Source of the DNA: an uncultured Candidatus Saccharibacteria bacterium
GTDB taxonomy: Bacteria > Patescibacteriota > Saccharimonadia > Saccharimonadales > UBA4665
Direction: 5' to 3'
Assembly: GCA_903840315.1 (NCBI GenBank)
Contig: CAIMFK010000007.1
Span: 1-48,886, forward strand
Length of the DNA: 48,886 nt
The notes under the pieces: generated by a model
Database searches by the model: none
The model's input: the letters and a program-made list of their open reading frames with translations, nothing else
What the model was told of the DNA's origin: nothing
In this document: positions 7,605 to 25,265 of the stretch, piece by piece
Numbering within the stretch: position 1 is the stretch's first letter
How the letters are laid out: each line of letters begins with the position of its first letter
Position numbers and translations under genes: made by a program

Positions 7605-8042
7605 ATGATAAATCAAATAAAAAACTACTATAACGACAAAATTAGACCAAATCTTAGAGATGTAAGATTTATTGGCTTAATGGTCTTCTTGTTCATAATG
7701 CTTCTTGTTACTTGGAGTGGAGTTAAATCTGTGCAGACCAATTATGAACTGCAGAAGCAAATATCATATTTACAGCAGCAAAATGATCTCCAGAAACTAA
7801 AAAATGATAACCTTAGGCTAAAAAATAGCTACTATAGTACAAATCAATATGTAGAGCTGTCGGCTCGTCAAAACTTTGGACTTCAATCAAGCGGTGAAAC
7901 AGAAGTAATTATTCCTAAATCCGTAGCTTTAAGACAATTAATAACATTATCTGATGATCAAAGCACTAAAATAAGTATTGGATCGCAATCGGCCTGGCAA
8001 AAGCATTTCGAAGAGTGGATTAACTTCTTCATGAATAGATAA
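7605..8042 (+). CDS. Septum formation initiator family protein (FtsB/DivIC-like)
   Basis: A bitopic protein of 145 residues with a short cytoplasmic N-terminus, one membrane helix (about 22-40) and a periplasmic-type coiled coil (about 45-82, ELQKQISYLQQQNDLQKLKN). The segment NQYVELSARQNFGLQSSGE matches the family pattern of a residue stretch ending in R-x-x-F/L-G followed by a GE motif. FtsB/DivIC bridges early and late divisome proteins with FtsL and FtsQ. Two overlapping -10 boxes (7586-7591 and 7591-7596) lie just upstream; the second predicts a leader of about 2 nt. Confidence 0.8.
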   Translation: MINQIKNYYNDKIRPNLRDVRFIGLMVFLFIMLLVTWSGVKSVQTNYELQKQISYLQQQNDLQKLKNDNLRLKNSYYSTNQYVELSARQNFGLQSSGETEVIIPKSVALRQLITLSDDQSTKISIGSQSAWQKHFEEWINFFMNR

Positions 8043-8124: not shown

Positions 8125-8199
8125 CGCGGGGTGGAGCAGCGGCAGCTCGCGTGGCTCATAACCACGAGGTCGCAGGTTCGAGTCCTGCCCCCGCAACCA
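8125..8199 (+). tRNA. Initiator tRNA-fMet (CAU)
   Basis: The cloverleaf shows the two initiator hallmarks: an unpaired C1 x A72 at the acceptor end and A11:U24 in the D stem. The anticodon loop is CTCATAA and CCA is encoded. Two oddities are visible. The D loop is very short (AGCGGCA). The anticodon stem CGTGG/CCACG has U29:A41 where most bacterial initiators have three consecutive G:C pairs. Its 3' half is repeated at 9449, marking an integration site. Confidence 0.93.
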
Positions 8200-8310
8200 A
8201 GTCAAGCACCAACAGAGGTAGACCGGGTTTCTAGACCGGTCTTTTTTATTACTTCTTAAAACCTTATCCCTGTTATTAGGTTCGAGTCCTATCCCTATTG
8301 GTTCGAACCG
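8174..8310 (+). repeat. Direct repeat copy 1 (tRNA-fMet 3' end plus downstream block; attL-like)
   Basis: This 137-bp block matches 9449-9585 without gaps (constant offset 1275) and with about 10 differences; the first 88 bp have only two. Weaker ungapped similarity continues to about 8430. The block starts in the T arm of tRNA-fMet and includes CCA and a terminator hairpin. Such duplication of a tRNA 3' end is the classic trace of integration into a tRNA gene. Confidence 0.85.
8220..8247 (+). terminator. Intrinsic terminator of tRNA-fMet
   Basis: AGACCGG (8220-8226) pairs with CCGGTCT (8236-8242), followed by a T6 run. One of the two differences between the repeat copies within the first 88 bp (T8230 to C9505) falls in the loop, leaving the stem intact. 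Confidence 0.85.
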
Positions 8311-8494: not shown

Positions 8495-9379
8495 ATGATT
8501 AATCAGATTACTAAAAGTCGTATTGCAGCACTCTCTGCCCAATATAAAAGATTAGCAGTGAATAAGTCGCAGGCAATTCGTGAAATTGCTATCGCTGAAA
8601 TTCCTGAAATGGTCTATAACAGCAATGCTATAGAAAATTCTACCCTAACCCTTAAAGATACTGAGGACATTTTGCTACGGGATACTATAAAGAAAGACCA
8701 TGATATTCGTGAGGTTTATGAAGCTAAAAACTTAGCTAACATTACCGAGTACTTACTGAAAAACACTGGCAAAGCATTGAGCTTTGAGCTTATATTATTG
8801 ATCCATAAAATGTTACTTTCGGGTATTCATGATGACTGGGCGGGCAGATTTCGTCGAGGGAAAGAATGGGTGCGAATTGGCGTGCATGTCGGGGCTAACC
8901 CTGAGTTTGTTTTCGGACTAATGAATACACTGTTGAAAGATTATGACGAATCAGATGGCCGGTATTTTCTAGAAAGAATCGCGTGGTTTCATGCTGAGTT
9001 TGAAACCATTCACCCATTTAATGATGGCAATGGACGTATAGGCCGTGTCATCATAAATCAGCAATTAATGAAACTGAAATACCCACCAATAATTATTCCG
9101 AATAAGGGCAAGCATACTGATTACTATCCAGCCTTCGATGCTTATCGTACAACTGGAAAGTATGACGACTTCACGGAACTATTTGCCGGTTTACTGATTG
9201 AATCGCTTTATAAGCGAATCGCTCTCTTGTCTGCGCCAAAGATCATTACCTTGTCTGCATGGGCTAAGGAAAACGGTGTAGCTGGTAATATCGCAGCCAA
9301 TAAAGCAAGGCGTGGCACAATTCCGGCATTTAGAATGCGTGAAAAGTGGATGATTACTGCAGACTTTCGCGAAAAATAG
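8495..9379 (+). CDS. Fic domain protein with N-terminal inhibitory motif
   Basis: A protein of 294 residues. The catalytic Fic motif HPFNDGNGRIGR is at residues 173-184 and complete, so AMP transfer (or transfer of another nucleotide part) to target hydroxyls is expected. An N-terminal helix carries SNAIEN (43-48), which fits the [S/T]xxxE[G/N] motif that blocks the ATP site; this is the class II, self-inhibited layout. The C-terminal 50 residues look like a small winged-helix or DNA-binding end (ITLSAWAKENGVAG). It is the sole gene of a cassette bracketed by tRNA-fMet repeats. Such proteins can act as toxins, regulators or defence factors; which applies here is unknown. Confidence 0.9.
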   Translation: MINQITKSRIAALSAQYKRLAVNKSQAIREIAIAEIPEMVYNSNAIENSTLTLKDTEDILLRDTIKKDHDIREVYEAKNLANITEYLLKNTGKALSFELILLIHKMLLSGIHDDWAGRFRRGKEWVRIGVHVGANPEFVFGLMNTLLKDYDESDGRYFLERIAWFHAEFETIHPFNDGNGRIGRVIINQQLMKLKYPPIIIPNKGKHTDYYPAFDAYRTTGKYDDFTELFAGLLIESLYKRIALLSAPKIITLSAWAKENGVAGNIAANKARRGTIPAFRMREKWMITADFREK

Positions 9380-9448
9380 TTAAATAGCTTTACAATTAAC
9401 AGATGTAAGTTAAGATAAAGTGAGCCCAAGCCAAAAGGTATTAGGCGG

Positions 9449-9585
9449 AGGTTCGAGTCCTGCCCCCGCAACCAAGTCATGCACCAACAGAGGTAGACCG
9501 GGTTCCTAGACCGGTCTTTTTTATTACTTCTTAAAATATCACCACTGTTATTGAGTTCGAGTCCTATCCCTATTGGCTCGAACCG
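9449..9585 (+). repeat. Direct repeat copy 2 (tRNA-fMet 3' fragment; attR-like)
   Basis: It repeats the T arm, acceptor 3' strand and CCA of tRNA-fMet, then the terminator and the downstream block. The 5' half of the tRNA is absent, so it is not a tRNA gene. The intergenic region 9380-9718 consists of this block and its diverged continuation; no ORF is seen in it. Confidence 0.85.
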
Positions 9586-9718
9586 CCGAATCACGCTTAA
9601 ACTACCTTATTACCTCTAGTAATGAGGTTCTAGAAGTGCTTTATTGTCTATATGAGGGTTGGGCAGTTGAACTCTAGACCGGGTTCCTTGATCGTTACCC
9701 ATAGATTATGATTAGTAT

Positions 9719-17599: not shown

Positions 17600-19054
17600 T
17601 TAGAAAAATACAAAGTCAAAATGACCTTCATCTACTTTAGTGTGAACGTAATTTAGAACTAACGTTAGCGCATCAACTAAGTCGTCATGTTTTTCTACAC
17701 CGAAATGTACTAATTGGTTAACCATTTTATTTATTGGCTTGGTGTTAGGAAAGAACACTTTACCTTGCTCAAATAACATACTTGCTGTAACTAAACGTGA
17801 ATGTTTGTCACCCTTAACGCCTAAACCTTCAACTTCTAATCCTTGGCTAATCAACACTTCTACTGCTGATTGCTGATAGGCTACATTTTCTACTAGAACC
17901 AAGGGTCTATATTCGACCTCGAATAGTCTACTGTAGCTATTTATACGCTCACAAGTTTCAAAGAATCCTAGTCGTTCATTCACGAAATGGGTATCTATAA
18001 AATACCTTCTGTCGTTAATTGCGTAACCATAAACATGCACAACTACTATTGCAGTATAATCTGCAGAATTACTTTTAGAGATTGCTAAATCAACGCCGAT
18101 ATAGCTATTAATATATTCATTCTCACCATCTTTTTCAGGCAATTCTTCGTAATAATTAATCCATTTCTGATCAATTATTTGACCTTCGTCTGGAACAATT
18201 AATAGTAAGTATTCTCTCTGCCATGCTCTAAAATTACCAATTTCTTTCTCCTTAGCTAATATCGACTTATTGTCGGGATACTTTCCGTGCCATAAAGATT
18301 CGCCATTTACATTAACAAGTGGGTAGCGTTTAAAGACTCCGGCCATAGATTTGTTATCTATATTGTCCTTAAGTCGCATCAGCAGGGAATCCTCATGTAA
18401 AAGGTTCCCTATAGTTATTATCTTGGTATCTTCATCACCAAGTGGCAAAATATCCCCTGTAAACCACTCATACGTTTTGTTACGCCCCTCTATTGTCTTA
18501 ACTGAGCTCATATCCTCCACATCGTCGGCAATGATTAGATCTGGCCTATATGCACCGTGTCTAACGCCACGAATTGCTTGTTCTGTTGATGCCGTTACAA
18601 TTCTAGCCTTATATTTGGGAAGAATTAGGGCAGTAGACCCCCACTCGTCAGCCTCTTCCTCTAATGGTCCGAAGTCTTTACGTAGTAGTTCATTGTTTTC
18701 GAACTCACGTTTAATATTTAATAAGTGATTACGTGCTTGGCTTTGAGTTTGACTTAAGATAACTACAAACTTTTTCTTTTGAACTCCTAAGATTGCCCAC
18801 ATTGGGTATGACTGAGTAATAATTGTTGACTTACCTGAACCACGGAAGGCTACTATAACGGCATGTTTTATAGATTCATCTTCTGTTATCGCGTATAGCT
18901 CTCTATGAAAATCGGCAGTAGGGTGCTTAACGTATTCACTCATATAGAGGTGAAAGAAATAATAATGGCTTTGCTTGGCCAGATGTATCCTGACCGAGCG
19001 TTGGTTTTTTAGTAGTTCAAAGTCTAAATCTTTATTTTCCATAACGCTGGCCAT
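17600..19054 (-). CDS. Phage terminase large subunit
   Basis: A protein of 484 residues with an ATPase domain and a nuclease domain. Walker A is RGSGKST (71-77), Walker B LIIADDVED (173-181), and a coupling motif is ITIGNLLHE. The C-terminal RNase H-like nuclease shows VDLAISKSNSAD (first acidic residue) and HDDLVDAL (last). The protein docks on the portal, pumps DNA into the head and cuts concatemers. It looks intact. It overlaps the small subunit gene; MENKD at ATG 19042 is an alternative start. No portal gene follows: the next gene on that side is the convergent hsdR. Confidence 0.92.
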   Translation of the reverse strand: MASVMENKDLDFELLKNQRSVRIHLAKQSHYYFFHLYMSEYVKHPTADFHRELYAITEDESIKHAVIVAFRGSGKSTIITQSYPMWAILGVQKKKFVVILSQTQSQARNHLLNIKREFENNELLRKDFGPLEEEADEWGSTALILPKYKARIVTASTEQAIRGVRHGAYRPDLIIADDVEDMSSVKTIEGRNKTYEWFTGDILPLGDEDTKIITIGNLLHEDSLLMRLKDNIDNKSMAGVFKRYPLVNVNGESLWHGKYPDNKSILAKEKEIGNFRAWQREYLLLIVPDEGQIIDQKWINYYEELPEKDGENEYINSYIGVDLAISKSNSADYTAIVVVHVYGYAINDRRYFIDTHFVNERLGFFETCERINSYSRLFEVEYRPLVLVENVAYQQSAVEVLISQGLEVEGLGVKGDKHSRLVTASMLFEQGKVFFPNTKPINKMVNQLVHFGVEKHDDLVDALTLVLNYVHTKVDEGHFDFVFF

Positions 19055-19454
19055 CCCCAGTTGTTTGAAGTAGGCCGGCTAACCTTAAAGCATTAGCTAC
19101 TTGCTGTGCTTGATCTTCAGTTAATATTTGGCTTTCTTGTTTTATTCGGGCATTAAGTTCAATCCTGGTGGTATAAGCACCATGGTGATGCTTTAGCCAG
19201 AAAATTATAGCCGTCATATTACGTTCCTTGATAGAAGATATTAGCTGGGATTCTGCAAGGTCATTAATAAAGCCAGCGCTGAGCATAATTGCTTCATCAC
19301 AGGCTTCAGCAAAATCTGTATCAGACTTCCTCCAGCGGTAATATGTAGCTCTCCCTAAACCTGTTTTACTACATGCAATTTCAACTACAGGAAACTTCTT
19401 TAGTTGTTCGAGTAGTCTTTTTTTACCACGTGCTTGTTTCGCTACAATGCTCAT
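19032..19454 (-). CDS. Phage terminase small subunit
   Basis: Starting at ATG 19454 the protein has 140 residues. A longer frame extends upstream, but a GGGAG ribosome-binding site and the ATGA overlap with the upstream gene support this start. The N-terminal part holds a helix-turn-helix (VVEIACSKTGLGRATYYRWRK), followed by helical segments including EAIMLSAGFINDLAESQL and ERNMTAIIFWLKHHHGAYTT. The last part matches terminase small subunits that recognise packaging sites. It lies directly upstream of the large subunit in the same operon. Confidence 0.8.
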   Translation of the reverse strand: MSIVAKQARGKKRLLEQLKKFPVVEIACSKTGLGRATYYRWRKSDTDFAEACDEAIMLSAGFINDLAESQLISSIKERNMTAIIFWLKHHHGAYTTRIELNARIKQESQILTEDQAQQVANALRLAGLLQTTGDGQRYGK

Positions 19455-20779
19455 GATAATTTCTCCCGTTTTAGTCCAGTAAGCTTTTCCCAGCGGTTCA
19501 TTATTACCTCTGCGTAAACAGGGGACTTTTCCATTAAGAAGCACCGACGCTTAAGCTTGGTAGCCGCAATTAAGGTTGAGCCTGAACCACCAAAAGGTTC
19601 TACCACTAAGTCTCCACGTTTTGTTAACACTTTTATATAGGGAATTAGGATTTCAATTGGTTTAGTCCCGAAGATAATACCTTGGCCTGAACTTTTTTCG
19701 TCTGAAACATTAGCCTCTATAAAATCAGTAGGTTGGTACTTCTTGCCGTGTTTATAGCCCTCCCATTGTGGCTTTCCGGATATAGCGTATAGAGCGGTTT
19801 CATATTCTTCCTGTAATCCATCAGGTTCTTCTTCATGGTTATATTCAACCGTACCATTTGCTCCTACCATTGCTATATCGTGTTTAGAGAAGAACTTATA
19901 TTTAGCAGCAAAGCCCTGGTTCCGATTTGGTAAGTGCCAGACTAACATATTTTTAATCTTCCAGTGCTTAGCCATTTCTCCCCAAATAACAGGTATATTC
20001 TTCCAGTTCTCATAGCAGATTATTGAGAAATCTGACTTAGCTGAACCCGCTACATTATTCATCCACAGTTCAGTGAAGTTATCTGGCAGTTCGTCTGTTT
20101 CAAGATATTTACGATTCTTTTTAGCACCAAATCCTTCAGTCGGTTTGCCATGTCTTTTGCCGGCTCGTAAGTAGTCAAGTATGTAAGGGGGATCAGTAAG
20201 TGCTAAGTCGGCCTTTTGACCGTCCATAAGCTTAATAAAATCCTCATCTACCGTGCTGTCACCAACCATCAGTCTAGAATCTCCGAGCTGGTAGATATCT
20301 CCCTTCTTAGCTTTAATTTCAGAAATGTTTAACTTATCTAACTCATGTTGAAGATCAAATATTTCTGGGTGATCATTATCTATATCGAAGATGATATCCA
20401 GATCTTCACTTGAGAAACCAACATCTGTTAGAAGAATTTCATCGAACTCTGCCAATAGATCCCAGTCCCATGCCCCCTGAGCTTTATTAAGTCTTAGGTT
20501 TAGTTCTTGCTCACGTTCTATATCCGGTATATGTACGTAGACTATAGGTACTTCTTTCATTCCCATGTCTTTAGCGACCTTTAGCCTAAAATGCCCACCG
20601 ATAACAACGTTAAGTCGTTCCTTGGATCCGTTGACGACCAAAGGATCGACTAGACCAAAACGCTTCATGCTCTTAGTCAATTGTTCAATCGCTGACTTAT
20701 CCCAGCGTCTTGGATTATATGGAGCTGGTTTCAGCTCCGATATCTTAATATTTTGTATAGTTAGTTGTTGCTCAGCCAT
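19451..20779 (-). CDS. ParB-like nuclease domain fused to a DNA methyltransferase
   Basis: A chimera of 442 residues common in phages. The N-terminal ParB/sulfiredoxin-like domain shows LKPAPYNPRRWDK, LVDPLVVNG and VVIGGHFRLKVAKDMG. The methyltransferase half has the catalytic DPPY near residue 196 and the SAM motif VVEPFGGSGSTLIAA near 394-408. This order (catalytic motif first) is the beta class, acting on N6-adenine or N4-cytosine. It may protect element DNA from host restriction. A strong AAAGGAG site lies 7 nt upstream of the ATG. Its start lies just downstream of the structured RNA candidate. Confidence 0.92.
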   Translation of the reverse strand: MAEQQLTIQNIKISELKPAPYNPRRWDKSAIEQLTKSMKRFGLVDPLVVNGSKERLNVVIGGHFRLKVAKDMGMKEVPIVYVHIPDIEREQELNLRLNKAQGAWDWDLLAEFDEILLTDVGFSSEDLDIIFDIDNDHPEIFDLQHELDKLNISEIKAKKGDIYQLGDSRLMVGDSTVDEDFIKLMDGQKADLALTDPPYILDYLRAGKRHGKPTEGFGAKKNRKYLETDELPDNFTELWMNNVAGSAKSDFSIICYENWKNIPVIWGEMAKHWKIKNMLVWHLPNRNQGFAAKYKFFSKHDIAMVGANGTVEYNHEEEPDGLQEEYETALYAISGKPQWEGYKHGKKYQPTDFIEANVSDEKSSGQGIIFGTKPIEILIPYIKVLTKRGDLVVEPFGGSGSTLIAATKLKRRCFLMEKSPVYAEVIMNRWEKLTGLKREKLS

Positions 20780-20810
20780 GGTAATTCTCCTTTCCTTGGC
20801 ATTAAGCTAA

Positions 20811-20970
20811 TAAAAAAGCCCACCCCACAGCCAAATCGAGGACCGGATCCACATCATAAAGACATGGGGGTCCTCCATTTTGCTGTAGAGTGGGCACTGT
20901 CGAGGTGCTTTACCTCTCGGGTTAGTCAATCTCGCTAGTTGACCAACCGTCTACGGCTTTAAGCCGAATA
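20811..20970 (-). ncRNA. Candidate structured RNA of about 160 nt with a long terminator-type hairpin
   Basis: Read on the minus strand, consecutive stems appear: CGGC/GCCG around 20954-20966, a 10-bp stem with arms 20939-20948 and 20920-20929, a GAGGT/ACCTC stem (20902-20916), and a 27-nt imperfect stem with arms 20869-20895 and 20818-20844 followed at once by six U. In the long stem two of four non-Watson-Crick positions are G-U only on the minus strand; the single imperfect pair of the 10-bp stem is also G-U only on that strand. On the plus strand all would be C-A mismatches. No ORF occupies the stretch. It lies between the early small genes and the ParB-methyltransferase/terminase genes. 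It could be a free small RNA, an attenuator or a packaging-related RNA. No known family is recognised. Confidence 0.6.
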
Positions 20971-20991
20971 CACAATTCCACACTTCTACTA

Positions 20992-21384
20992 TCATGTAGA
21001 TTGTAAAAGGTGCTGGCGTTTTAATGACTCGAGTTTTTCGAGGGCATCTTCCGCCATATGCACCGGCAAACCAGTTGTCGGCACATATACGCGTAACATA
21101 CGTTTTTTATTCTTTGCTAGTAGCTCTATAATTTCGTCTTCTTTAAAGTTAATACCAACTTCATAGGTATTGTCTGCAACGGGTTTGATATGGCTATAGG
21201 AACGACGTGGCTTACCACCTTTAAGTTGCTTTGCCATATTCCTTACTAGGGAAGTAGGCTTACTTGGCTTCTGAGCATGTAGACTTATATCAGTCAGAAT
21301 AATATCTATAGAATCCTCGATTGGAATATAGCTACCAGTTGGTACAACGCGCCTCTTCATGATCAGTCGATTATTTATTTTCAT
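20992..21384 (-). CDS. Hypothetical small protein of the phage-like operon
   Basis: From ATG 21384 (MKINNRLIMKRRVVPTG) the protein has 130 residues. A GAGGA ribosome-binding site made by the end of the GIY-YIG gene supports this start over the longer frame. It is mixed alpha/beta, basic, and has strand-like segments (TYEVGINFKEDEII, RMLRVYVPTTGLP) and a C-terminal helix (AEDALEKLESLKRQ). No family is recognised. It is the last gene before the structured RNA candidate. Confidence 0.65.
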   Translation of the reverse strand: MKINNRLIMKRRVVPTGSYIPIEDSIDIILTDISLHAQKPSKPTSLVRNMAKQLKGGKPRRSYSHIKPVADNTYEVGINFKEDEIIELLAKNKKRMLRVYVPTTGLPVHMAEDALEKLESLKRQHLLQST

Positions 21385-21908: not shown

Positions 21909-21938
21909 ATTATAACACGTCTATCTAAAAACTGTAAA
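21909..21938 (-). promoter_or_regulatory. Promoter of the early minus-strand operon
   Basis: On the minus strand TTTACA (21938-21933) and TATAAT (21914-21909) are 18 bp apart. The transcript would begin near 21902 and carry a small 5' hairpin (TCCTC 21883-21887 with GAGGA 21894-21898) before the ribosome-binding site. TGTAAA occurs on the plus strand here and again at 21951-21956, a possible operator pair. Confidence 0.65.
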
Positions 21939-21961: not shown

Positions 21962-21990
21962 TTGAATTCAAAAACAAAATTCTATATACT
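21962..21990 (+). promoter_or_regulatory. Promoter of the LexA/CI-like repressor gene
   Basis: TTGAAT (21962-21967) and TATACT (21985-21990) have a 17-bp spacer. The expected start at 21997 is one base before ATG 21998. The TTG that opens the longest reading frame is therefore the -35 box and not a start codon. Confidence 0.75.
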
Positions 21991-21997
21991 TAAGCTA

Positions 21998-22624
21998 ATG
22001 CACAAGGTCCAAGAACAACTTCTTGCGTTATCTAAGAAACAAGACATTACAAAGTTAGGCTTAAGAGAATTAGCTAGAACTCTGAATGTTCGTAATCCGG
22101 AAACCATTAAGTACCACTTATCGAAACTACAGGACGCTAAAATTTTAGAAGCACCTGAGATTGATCATAGTGTTCAACAAATGAGTGATTATAAGCTGGT
22201 AACCATTCCAGTTTTAGGTGCTGCAAGCGCTGGTCCAGCTACGCAATTCGCTGACTCTAAGGTAGAAGGTTATATAAAAATTTCTTCTAAGCTGTTAAAG
22301 ACGAAGAAATACAAAGAATTATATGCTTTAAAGGTAGTGGGTGATTCAATGAACCAAGCTAAAATCGAAGGCCAAACAGCCGAGGATGGTGACTACATAA
22401 TAGTAGATAGTACGAAGAGAAACCCTGTAAATAGTAGCTACGTTATTGCAGTTGTAGATGGGCTCGCTAATGTTAAGCGTTTTGTTAGAGATAACGATCG
22501 CATTGTTTTACTATCTGAATCATCGGGTAATTTTTTACCCATATTTGTCCATGAAGATGATGAGCGAGAAGGCTTAATCAGCGGAACTGTAGTGCAAGTA
22601 GTTAAGCAACCACGATTCGCCTAA
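21998..22624 (+). CDS. LexA/CI-like self-cleaving repressor
   Basis: From ATG 21998 the protein has 208 residues. The N-terminal winged helix (to about 55) includes LGLRELARTLNVRNPETIKYHLSKL. The C-terminal S24 peptidase domain has the cleavage site Ala78-Gly79 (GAASAGPA), the catalytic Ser117 (VVGDSMNQ) and Lys160 (DGLANVKRF). RecA-stimulated self-cleavage after DNA damage would inactivate it. It faces the early operon across about 150 bp of shared regulatory DNA, the classic arrangement of a prophage repressor. A host LexA is possible but less likely in this context. Predicted leaderless mRNA. Confidence 0.88.
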   Translation: MHKVQEQLLALSKKQDITKLGLRELARTLNVRNPETIKYHLSKLQDAKILEAPEIDHSVQQMSDYKLVTIPVLGAASAGPATQFADSKVEGYIKISSKLLKTKKYKELYALKVVGDSMNQAKIEGQTAEDGDYIIVDSTKRNPVNSSYVIAVVDGLANVKRFVRDNDRIVLLSESSGNFLPIFVHEDDEREGLISGTVVQVVKQPRFA

Positions 22625-22657: not shown

Positions 22658-23854
22658 ATGTACTTACATCTAAAAGATAGAAAATTCTACGAAGATATTT
22701 ATGATCGCGTTACCGTTGAGGATGCGCGACGTGGTATGGTTCATTACGATAAATTCTTTCTAGAACTAAAAAAGAAGCTTCCTAAAGACGACAAAATAGA
22801 CAGACCCGGGAATGCTATATTGCTAAACGTTTTCTATATGCAGACTGTTGGTAACGATTTACTCTATCGTTATGAAAACCGTGAGCGCCATATCAATGAA
22901 AGAATGGCTGAAGATGAGAAGAAGGATGAACAAATTGCAACTGCCAGATTAACTAAAGAGCCATATTGCCATCATTGTAATAGGCATGGTTTAAGGATTA
23001 TAGATAAGTCGTTGATGCATCGAGGTGATCATTATGACCTAAACGAGCCCGAAGAGGTGCTATTTATGCTTAGCTGTCCTCACTGTAAGAAGAAGAGTGC
23101 TTTTTGGGAAGATGGTACCGCTTGGAAGGTGAAGGCGATAGTATGTCCAAAATGCAAAACTGAAATGACCCATAAAACAACGACAACTAAGATGTCATTT
23201 ATCTTTACATATAGTTGTCCATCGTGTGGCCACAGTTATAAAGATAAGATGGATCGTTCTACCAAAGAAGAGGAGAGGTCTGATCCTGAATATGATAAAG
23301 ACCGTGTCCATTTTTGCCTTGAGGATAAAGAATTCCGGGATAAGTTATATGGAATACAACGTGGTTTTGAAGGTATGGCAGCGCTGGGTAAAGAGCTAAA
23401 AGAAAAGGACGATAACAAGCATATATATGATGCAATGAAAGAAGTTAAGAAGCCAAAGATTGCTGAGTTAACTCCCTTACTTGCACCAATTCTAGAGAAA
23501 GCTGGATATACTGAGTTTAGTCTAGACAAACCAGAAATGGGGCGGGATGTTTACATAGGTTTTAGTTGCCTAGACACCAAATCAGATCGTGAGGATTATG
23601 ACAGCAGAAAGACTCTTAAGAAGCTAGTCGATAGAGCTTTAGTAGACACTAACTGGCGTCTAATGAGTGATGGAATAAATTACCGACTAGGTTACTTAAG
23701 CGGAAGGATTCGTGCATATGAGCGAGAGGAAGACCTTAAGAAGCTAGTTATGCAAACTAAGAAGTTGAAACCTAAGCAAGTAAGTAGTGAGGCTGATAAT
23801 CCAGACAATGAATTTAGTATGGATGATGGAAAAGGCGGAAGAATCCAATACTAA
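22658..23854 (+). CDS. Zinc-ribbon protein of unknown function
   Basis: A hydrophilic protein of 398 residues rich in Lys, Asp and Glu. Four CxxC knuckles lie in the middle: CHHC, CPHC, CPKC and CPSC (about residues 110-190), which should bind two zinc ions in tandem ribbons. The first 100 and last 200 residues are helical and charged. No catalytic motif is seen. A -10 TAAAAT (22646-22651) puts the transcript start on the ATG. Downstream of the repressor in the same direction, it may be an accessory gene of the element. No family recognised. Confidence 0.7.
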   Translation: MYLHLKDRKFYEDIYDRVTVEDARRGMVHYDKFFLELKKKLPKDDKIDRPGNAILLNVFYMQTVGNDLLYRYENRERHINERMAEDEKKDEQIATARLTKEPYCHHCNRHGLRIIDKSLMHRGDHYDLNEPEEVLFMLSCPHCKKKSAFWEDGTAWKVKAIVCPKCKTEMTHKTTTTKMSFIFTYSCPSCGHSYKDKMDRSTKEEERSDPEYDKDRVHFCLEDKEFRDKLYGIQRGFEGMAALGKELKEKDDNKHIYDAMKEVKKPKIAELTPLLAPILEKAGYTEFSLDKPEMGRDVYIGFSCLDTKSDREDYDSRKTLKKLVDRALVDTNWRLMSDGINYRLGYLSGRIRAYEREEDLKKLVMQTKKLKPKQVSSEADNPDNEFSMDDGKGGRIQY

Positions 23855-24386: not shown

Positions 24387-25265
24387 ATGAAAATTATTTT
24401 AGAAGATGGTAGATATGTGGTTGCTGTAAGTGGCGGAGTTGATTCTGTCGTTCTTTTAGATTTATTAACCAAGGAGAAGGGCCTAATTCTTGCAGTCGCT
24501 CATTTTGACCATGGCATAAGAGATGAGTCATATATTGATCGAGATTTTGTAGAACAACTTGCCGTTAAGTATGGTCTTGAGTTTTATTCCGAAGATGGCA
24601 ATTTAGGTAACCGTGCGAGCGAGGAACAGGCTCGAATTGCTAGATATAATTTCCTAGAAAGAGTTAAAGATGAATTTAATGCTCATTTGATCATTACCGC
24701 ACACCATCAGGACGATCTTTTAGAAACGGCCGCACTAAATATTTTAAGAGGAACCGGAAGAAAAGGCCTTAGCTCACTTAAAAGTACTAAATCTTTGTTC
24801 AGGCCTTTACTAAATTATTCTAAAGAAGAAATTATAGAATACGCACTTAAGAATAATCTCAATTGGGTTGAGGATAAAACAAACCTTGATACAAAGTACA
24901 GAAGAAACTATGTAAGACATGAACTTCTAAGTAATTTATCGGATAATGAAAAAGATCATCTCATTGATGTTGTCCATAAAACAGATATTATCAATAAGGA
25001 GATAGATAAAGCTCTTAATGCCGAAATCAACAACCATACGACTAAAGATGAAATGGATCGTTATTGGTTCGTTATGCTACCACATGATTTATCTGAGGAG
25101 ATTATGGCTCAGTGGCTCAGAAACAGTGGCCTGGCGTCCTTTGATAGAAAAACTATCAATAGGTCAGTGATTGCTGCAAAAACTTTAAAACCTGGCAAAA
25201 AATCTGAAATATACAAAAATTTTAAGCTGCTCATCGAAGATAAAAGCTTAAAAATTATTAAGTAA
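24387..25265 (+). CDS. tilS: tRNA(Ile)-lysidine synthetase
   Basis: An N-type ATP pyrophosphatase of 292 residues. The PP-loop motif SGGVDS is at residues 15-20; AHFDHGIRDES, ITAHHQDDLLET and LRGTGRKGLSSL are further TilS marks. The enzyme converts C34 of tRNA-Ile(CAU) to lysidine so that it reads AUA. It is shorter than the E. coli enzyme (about 430 residues) and keeps the catalytic domain plus a short C-terminal part, like the compact type. Its likely substrate is the tRNA at 7467-7542. A -10 TATTAT (24374-24379) predicts an mRNA starting 1 nt before the ATG. Confidence 0.92.
   Translation: MKIILEDGRYVVAVSGGVDSVVLLDLLTKEKGLILAVAHFDHGIRDESYIDRDFVEQLAVKYGLEFYSEDGNLGNRASEEQARIARYNFLERVKDEFNAHLIITAHHQDDLLETAALNILRGTGRKGLSSLKSTKSLFRPLLNYSKEEIIEYALKNNLNWVEDKTNLDTKYRRNYVRHELLSNLSDNEKDHLIDVVHKTDIINKEIDKALNAEINNHTTKDEMDRYWFVMLPHDLSEEIMAQWLRNSGLASFDRKTINRSVIAAKTLKPGKKSEIYKNFKLLIEDKSLKIIK

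Follow-up and report, generated by a model that had tools for sequence, protein, structure and literature searches.

What does a long, strongly folded RNA do when it lies directly before a ParB-domain DNA methyltransferase gene and two terminase genes? The locus in question is part of the window, by which we mean the whole 48,886-nt contig CAIMFK010000007.1 and not only the RNA region. A sequence-only reading had proposed four consecutive minus-strand stems within positions 20811-20970, the last of them with 27-nt arms (23 Watson-Crick and 2 G-U pairs) and followed by six U. Inspection of the sequence and folding placed all four stems there on the minus strand, and the count of pairs agreed. 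The minus strand of 20800-20980 reached a minimum free energy of -82.9 kcal/mol compared with a shuffle mean of -50.0 (z -8.59), and none of 200 shuffles was as good, which bears out the folding check that had been suggested. The plus strand also beat its shuffles, but by less (-62.3 kcal/mol, z -4.87).

The RNA is built from two modules, an upstream set of three stems and a directly abutting 78-nt hairpin with U6. On the minus strand, stem 1 (20954-20966) comprises 5 bp, stem 2 (20920-20948) 10 bp plus 2 bp past a bulged A, and stem 3 (20902-20916) 5 bp. The long terminator-type hairpin (20818-20895, minus strand) contains 32 pairs and has a predicted energy of -52.5 kcal/mol. Its outer part consists of the 27-nt arms with 25 pairs, and its inner part of a 7-bp stem including two more G-U pairs. 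The U-tract (20812-20817, minus strand) follows immediately, which gives the anatomy of an intrinsic terminator, a G+C-containing hairpin directly succeeded by U6. Only 38 nt separate the hairpin from the ATG of the methyltransferase gene. A scan of both strands of the window covered 963 T-run sites; no other adjoins a hairpin this stable, the next one reaching -27.2 kcal/mol. The earlier statement that the structure far exceeds a simple terminator thus holds for its size, but its anatomy is that of a terminator, and oversized terminators recur in relatives (see below).

Exactly one other distinct copy of the leader was found, present with the same sequence in the metagenome-assembled genome L086 and the viral contig L002 and ~72% identical to the window leader. 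We aligned the window with L086 from sequence only and obtained a consensus structure of 54 pairs. All 54 are paired in both copies: 11 show a two-sided change, 6 a one-sided change, and none is broken. When partners were slid by 1-3 columns as a control, 0-1 two-sided changes remained. Because the consensus structure was derived from both sequences, the fold of the window alone is the fairer test. Of its 60 alignable pairs, 54 are kept in L086, compared with 44.9 ± 2.2 under a null model of random change at the same columns. Both the upstream stems (25 of 29 pairs kept; null 19.5 ± 1.6) and the long hairpin (29 of 31; null 25.3 ± 1.4) exceed their expectation. Within the upstream module, two pairs of stem 1, four of stem 2 and one of stem 3 have changed on both sides, and one T-A pair of stem 2 in the window corresponds to A.A in L086. 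Two distinct sequences back the fold as a whole and give no pair-by-pair significance. Neither missing covariation nor indel-broken stems were seen between them, and the proposed selection on the fold is upheld: the RNA fold is real, under selection and evolutionarily conserved.

The consensus fold contains a fifth helix that was missing from the earlier list of stems, in which 20972-20976 pair with 20896-20900 (span 20896-20976, minus strand). It carries one two-sided and one one-sided change between the window and L086, and is absent from the single-sequence fold of L086. Given this modest support, the assignment is tentative; the helix would close stems 1-3 into a four-way junction.

In the long hairpin of L086, the upper part stays paired through two-sided changes, while the lower stem is identical in sequence, and its two G-U pairs are retained in both copies. 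Identity continues through the U-tract as far as the ribosome-binding site. The whole segment 20787-20838, from the 3' arm of the lower hairpin over the U-tract to the ribosome-binding site, is unchanged despite a changed upper hairpin and changed upstream stems. Judged from these two sequences, the identity from the lower stem to the ribosome-binding-site stretch exceeds what pairing needs, and a sequence-specific role of 20787-20838 is possible.

The sequence-only reading had also taken G-U pairs that are possible on one strand only as a sign of a minus-strand RNA. For the long hairpin, this argument stands: folded alone, it reaches -52.5 kcal/mol in sense versus -37.9 in antisense, and the L086 copy -50.1 versus -35.7. 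For the upstream stems alone, the difference is small in the window (-28.4 versus -22.9), and in L086 the antisense is slightly more stable than the sense. Strand asymmetry therefore resides nearly entirely in the long hairpin and is weak for the three upstream stems.

The description of the RNA as new was likewise supported. Rfam returned no family over the RNA region at gathering score, and the best match at E values up to 10 was a chance-level 15.6 bits. A covariance model of the upstream module (R1) retrieved only the window and the L086/L002 copies from 91 related loci, 393 class genomes and 93 family genomes; one further match in L009 (16 bits, E 0.5) was taken as chance. Searching viral contigs with the exact 3'-flank pattern and searching with the small protein encoded upstream (20992-21384) led to the same relative only. 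In other relatives, the position of the upstream module holds other sequence or nothing that we recognised. No alternative antiterminator helix was identified for the leader.

To place the RNA in its genetic context, we annotated the surrounding genes. The minus-strand order is promoter, small ORF, 105-aa protein, small protein, RNA, methyltransferase, small terminase subunit (TerS) and large terminase subunit (TerL). The candidate promoter, recognised by its consensus, is of the sigma70 type (TTTACA-18-TATAAT with a TG extension, 11/12 matches; 21909-21938, minus strand) and reads toward the RNA. The 105-aa protein resembles a GIY-YIG nuclease by eye only and has no Pfam or PHROGs match. The small protein directly upstream of the RNA (20992-21384, minus strand) has no assigned function and shares 36% identity with its L086 counterpart; a structure prediction from the two sequences (mean pLDDT 46.7) was set aside. 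Pfam and PHROGs matches confirmed that the RNA adjoins the methyltransferase and terminase genes on their upstream side. The first gene past the hairpin encodes the ParB-domain DNA methyltransferase (19451-20779, minus strand; Pfam ParB_N and N6_N4_Mtase, phrog_498), preceded by the ribosome-binding site AAGGAAAGGAG (20787-20797, minus strand), which is identical in L086. It is followed on the same strand by a TerS-like gene (19032-19454; phrog_4044 and phrog_309; start uncertain) and the TerL gene (17600-19054; phrog_38, E 4e-86; Terminase_6C).

On the other side of the promoter lies a divergent gene for an S24/LexA-type repressor (21962-22624, plus strand; Peptidase_S24, E 3e-18; phrog_4), followed by a gene for a zinc-ribbon protein. 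The latter (398-447 aa; window 22658-23854, L086 165-1508) is seemingly common to both islands, a likeness judged by eye and with weak profile matches to zinc-ribbon. L086 follows the gene plan of the window, but an HNH protein replaces the 105-aa protein, and past TerL, at the place of the window's type I restriction genes, it encodes a 974-aa protein (by eye of a large restriction-modification type). A candidate extended -10 promoter stands beside the repressor in both. Neither the window nor L086 contains a promoter-like site with at least 9/12 matches in the interval from the upstream small protein to the methyltransferase. Transcription of the methyltransferase-terminase genes should therefore need to cross the hairpin, provided that no unrecognised promoter exists.

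Comparison with a congener, G111, delimited the element that carries these genes. A gene at 7605-8042 and tilS (24387-25265) lie ~0.8 kb apart in G111 versus 16.3 kb in the window. The match of G111 to the window ends at 8201, the end of a tRNA-Met, and resumes ~33 nt on from 23997. The tRNA-Met 3' end with its flank (8171-8240) is repeated at about 9442-9513, with a partial third copy at 9675-9694, and the repeats bracket a Fic-family gene (8495-9379). Sequence comparison suggests an island of ~14.5 kb, at about 9.5-24.0 kb with approximate ends, that is absent at this site in G111. It also suggests that a small Fic-bearing insertion at 8.2-9.5 kb is a second insertion at the same tRNA-Met, adjoining the island. 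Island genes include those for a trypsin-like protein, a serine recombinase, type I restriction, TerL, TerS, the ParB-methyltransferase and the S24/LexA-type repressor. Pfam, PHROGs and inspection of the remaining ORFs by eye revealed no recognisable capsid, portal or tail genes in the island.

The earlier placement inside a phage packaging operon was hence half right: packaging genes are there, but they belong to an integrated island that the congener lacks and in which no capsid, portal or tail gene was recognised. A complete prophage was ruled out, as no such genes were recognised near the terminase. The combination of its own recombinase and terminase, no recognised capsid genes and an empty site in the congener would fit a PICI-like satellite, and the island looks like a phage satellite or a similar hitch-hiking element. 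Several relatives carry consecutive genes for methyltransferase, TerS, TerL and a 430-450-aa protein. In L065, which was read out in full, TerL is missing and a serine recombinase directly follows TerS; for the other 430-450-aa proteins, the assessment relied on size and gene order alone. Several other copies are seemingly without TerL, some because the locus ends. Terminase genes in Patescibacteria need not mean phage.

The ParB-methyltransferase is frequent in Patescibacteria, occurring in 20 of 295 class genomes besides the window's own (64-76% identity), with further copies in other Patescibacteria and in viral contigs. Most of the relatives' methyltransferase leaders do not align with the window leader. 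We scanned them for terminator-type hairpins of -25 kcal/mol or better, requiring a U-tract and a position within 110 nt of the start codon. Such hairpins were found in 30 of 78 distinct methyltransferase leaders versus 6 of 296 leaders of other genes at the same loci, a comparison that is based on energy models and a home-made scan of loci picked by similarity to one gene and not independent of each other. The hairpins in the 30 positive leaders are of mostly unrelated sequence. After similar leaders had been grouped by hand, 22 of 61 had an oversized terminator. Since a LOOT RNA coincides with or adjoins several of the strongest control hairpins, the control rate is if anything too high. Without the U-tract condition the separation was less sharp (42% of targets versus ~10% of controls below -30 kcal/mol).

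Strand preference and pairing were evaluated in the same leaders. A strong hairpin on one strand or the other was present in 50 leaders; 32 of them favoured the sense fold and 15 the antisense fold (p 0.02). With related leaders grouped, the split was 22 versus 13 (p 0.18, not significant). Pairing was kept significantly or nearly so in L061/L063/L072, in L018 with L015 or L037, and in L058/L068, and not significantly in L019/L020, L021/L022, L074/L127 and L015/L037. As ~60% of the relatives have no oversized terminator, it is not essential to the methyltransferase gene. Given that such terminators recur before this gene and that the hairpin is a stem plus U6, termination or attenuation is the simplest core function to assume. 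We follow here the reasoning of a published survey, in which attenuation is considered probable for gene families that unusually often carry 5' terminators (PMC2965389). The same survey reports 5' terminators to be less stable than 3' ones, whereas the hairpins here are exceptionally stable.

Two further features accompany related islands. In L061, L063, L072, L120 and L070, the gene immediately preceding the hairpin encodes a small zinc-ribbon-like protein (81-108 aa), and the proteins of the first three loci are recognisably related to one another. They are reminiscent of Com, the small zinc-finger regulator of phage Mu; a Com-like role for the five proteins was not retained, given no Pfam or PHROGs support. 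The LOOT RNA (RF03000) lies within ~6 kb of the ParB-methyltransferase in many relatives (L123, L078, L063, L089, L041, L061, L072, L083, L056, L040 and L044, and further L076, L074, L066, L077, L064, L067 and L096). Across 26 loci scanned regardless of LOOT, we counted 10 in 294 kb (~1 per 29 kb), compared with a background of 17 in ~5.3 Mb (~1 per 310 kb) in six genomes holding such loci. LOOT is thus ~tenfold enriched near methyltransferase islands. In the cases checked, a small gene mostly begins 40-80 nt downstream of LOOT, and its product is often a membrane or exported protein; LOOT may be a leader RNA of island-carried genes. The window RNA shares with LOOT that it is a structured RNA beside such islands, but does not match its model, even at E values up to 10.

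We give an even chance to the reading that the window RNA is a cis-acting leader and attenuator inside one operon, gating the methyltransferase-terminase genes. The leader holds a hairpin with the anatomy of a terminator, and no promoter-like site of at least 9/12 matches lies between hairpin and gene. Transcription would start at the promoter beside the divergent S24/LexA-type repressor and cross a few small genes. RNA polymerase would then transcribe the three-stem module, which may form a junction, and after it the long U6-flanked hairpin, at which the majority of polymerases would stop. With the methyltransferase-TerS-TerL genes starting 38 nt on and no space for a normal promoter, they would be expressed only via read-through. 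In the resting island, the hairpin would hold these genes low and shield them from stray transcription. Upon induction, their expression would rise through a read-through factor, a protein of the island, a helper phage or the host; alternatively, the folded module itself might act on the polymerase. The module beside the hairpin would be the likely sensing or binding part.

Several observations weigh against attenuation: just two distinct copies of the upstream module were found, we identified no alternative antiterminator pairing, the majority of relatives manage without an oversized terminator, and pairing alone does not account for the identical lower stem. A static insulator, unlikely in our estimation, would end the upstream transcript and block stray read-through without regulated release, leaving the methyltransferase-terminase genes to leakage or an unrecognised promoter and the upstream stems to serve, for example, RNA stability. 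It would explain the terminator anatomy and why the hairpin but not the upstream module is common to relatives, and the Tn916 report offers a precedent in an insulating terminator at one element end (PMC11658703). Yet compensatory changes have kept the upstream stems, and the hairpin lies within the gene cluster and behind what is probably the cluster's own promoter, rather than only at an island end.

The compact conserved fold with its own terminator and the unusually conserved sequence of the 3' part would also suit a separate small RNA that acts in trans, with the methyltransferase lying downstream by arrangement only. We consider this decidedly improbable, as neither copy has a promoter-like site of at least 9/12 directly upstream of the RNA, and the RNA is rare (two distinct copies) and without an Rfam match. 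Even less probable, to a degree that we would be surprised to see it borne out, is a DNA-level signal, in which the long inverted repeat would be a packaging (cos/pac) or protein-binding site. Its position adjoining the terminase genes and the long inverted repeats near the methyltransferase in many relatives fit such a site; the directional U-tract, the better sense fold in both copies, the two retained lower-stem G-U pairs and, before grouping, the sense preference across relatives argue for an RNA. For the interference or packaging-RNA role that had been put forward, we found no evidence.

The attenuator reading has parallels in several known systems. In phage lambda, a short leader RNA stops at the terminator tR' before the late genes, and Q brings about antitermination on induction; a terminator-stopped leader and induced antitermination are what the model proposes here. 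The nearest described logic is that of Tn916, followed by HK022 put and then AlpA. In the published account of Tn916, terminator T1, near one end of the conjugative element, insulates genes of the integrated element, and canT, a probable cis-acting structured RNA with its activity located in a 452-nt stretch, antiterminates (PMC11658703). An integrated mobile element, a terminator that for the window would insulate its genes and a structured cis-acting RNA are common to both; the predicted structure of canT differs from that of the window RNA and T1 lies near the element end, and for the window antitermination is a proposal. The put RNA of phage HK022 is a ~70-nt cis-acting leader RNA with two long stem-loops that controls downstream termination (PMC9378689). 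No terminator of its own comes immediately after put, whereas in the window three stems, perhaps a junction, abut a giant one; membership among put antiterminator RNAs was rejected, as the window RNA does not have the two-stem form. In Pseudomonas aeruginosa, the report on the DNA-damage-linked AlpA describes effector genes behind intrinsic terminators that an antiterminator protein overcomes (PMC7969949). Terminator and antitermination gate lysis genes there, much as proposed for the window leader, but AlpA works through a DNA element in the promoter.

A more specific form of the attenuator reading, which we hold to be doubtful, is that the folded module acts as a conditional cis-acting RNA antiterminator, or as a factor-binding RNA, that would switch the adjacent giant terminator from stop to go and so gate the resting versus the packaging state in Patescibacteria terminase islands. 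To our knowledge, the regulation of mobile elements in Patescibacteria has been little explored because few hosts have been cultured. The recurrence of a strong terminator before methyltransferase-terminase genes, built from mostly unrelated sequences, points to a shared switch.
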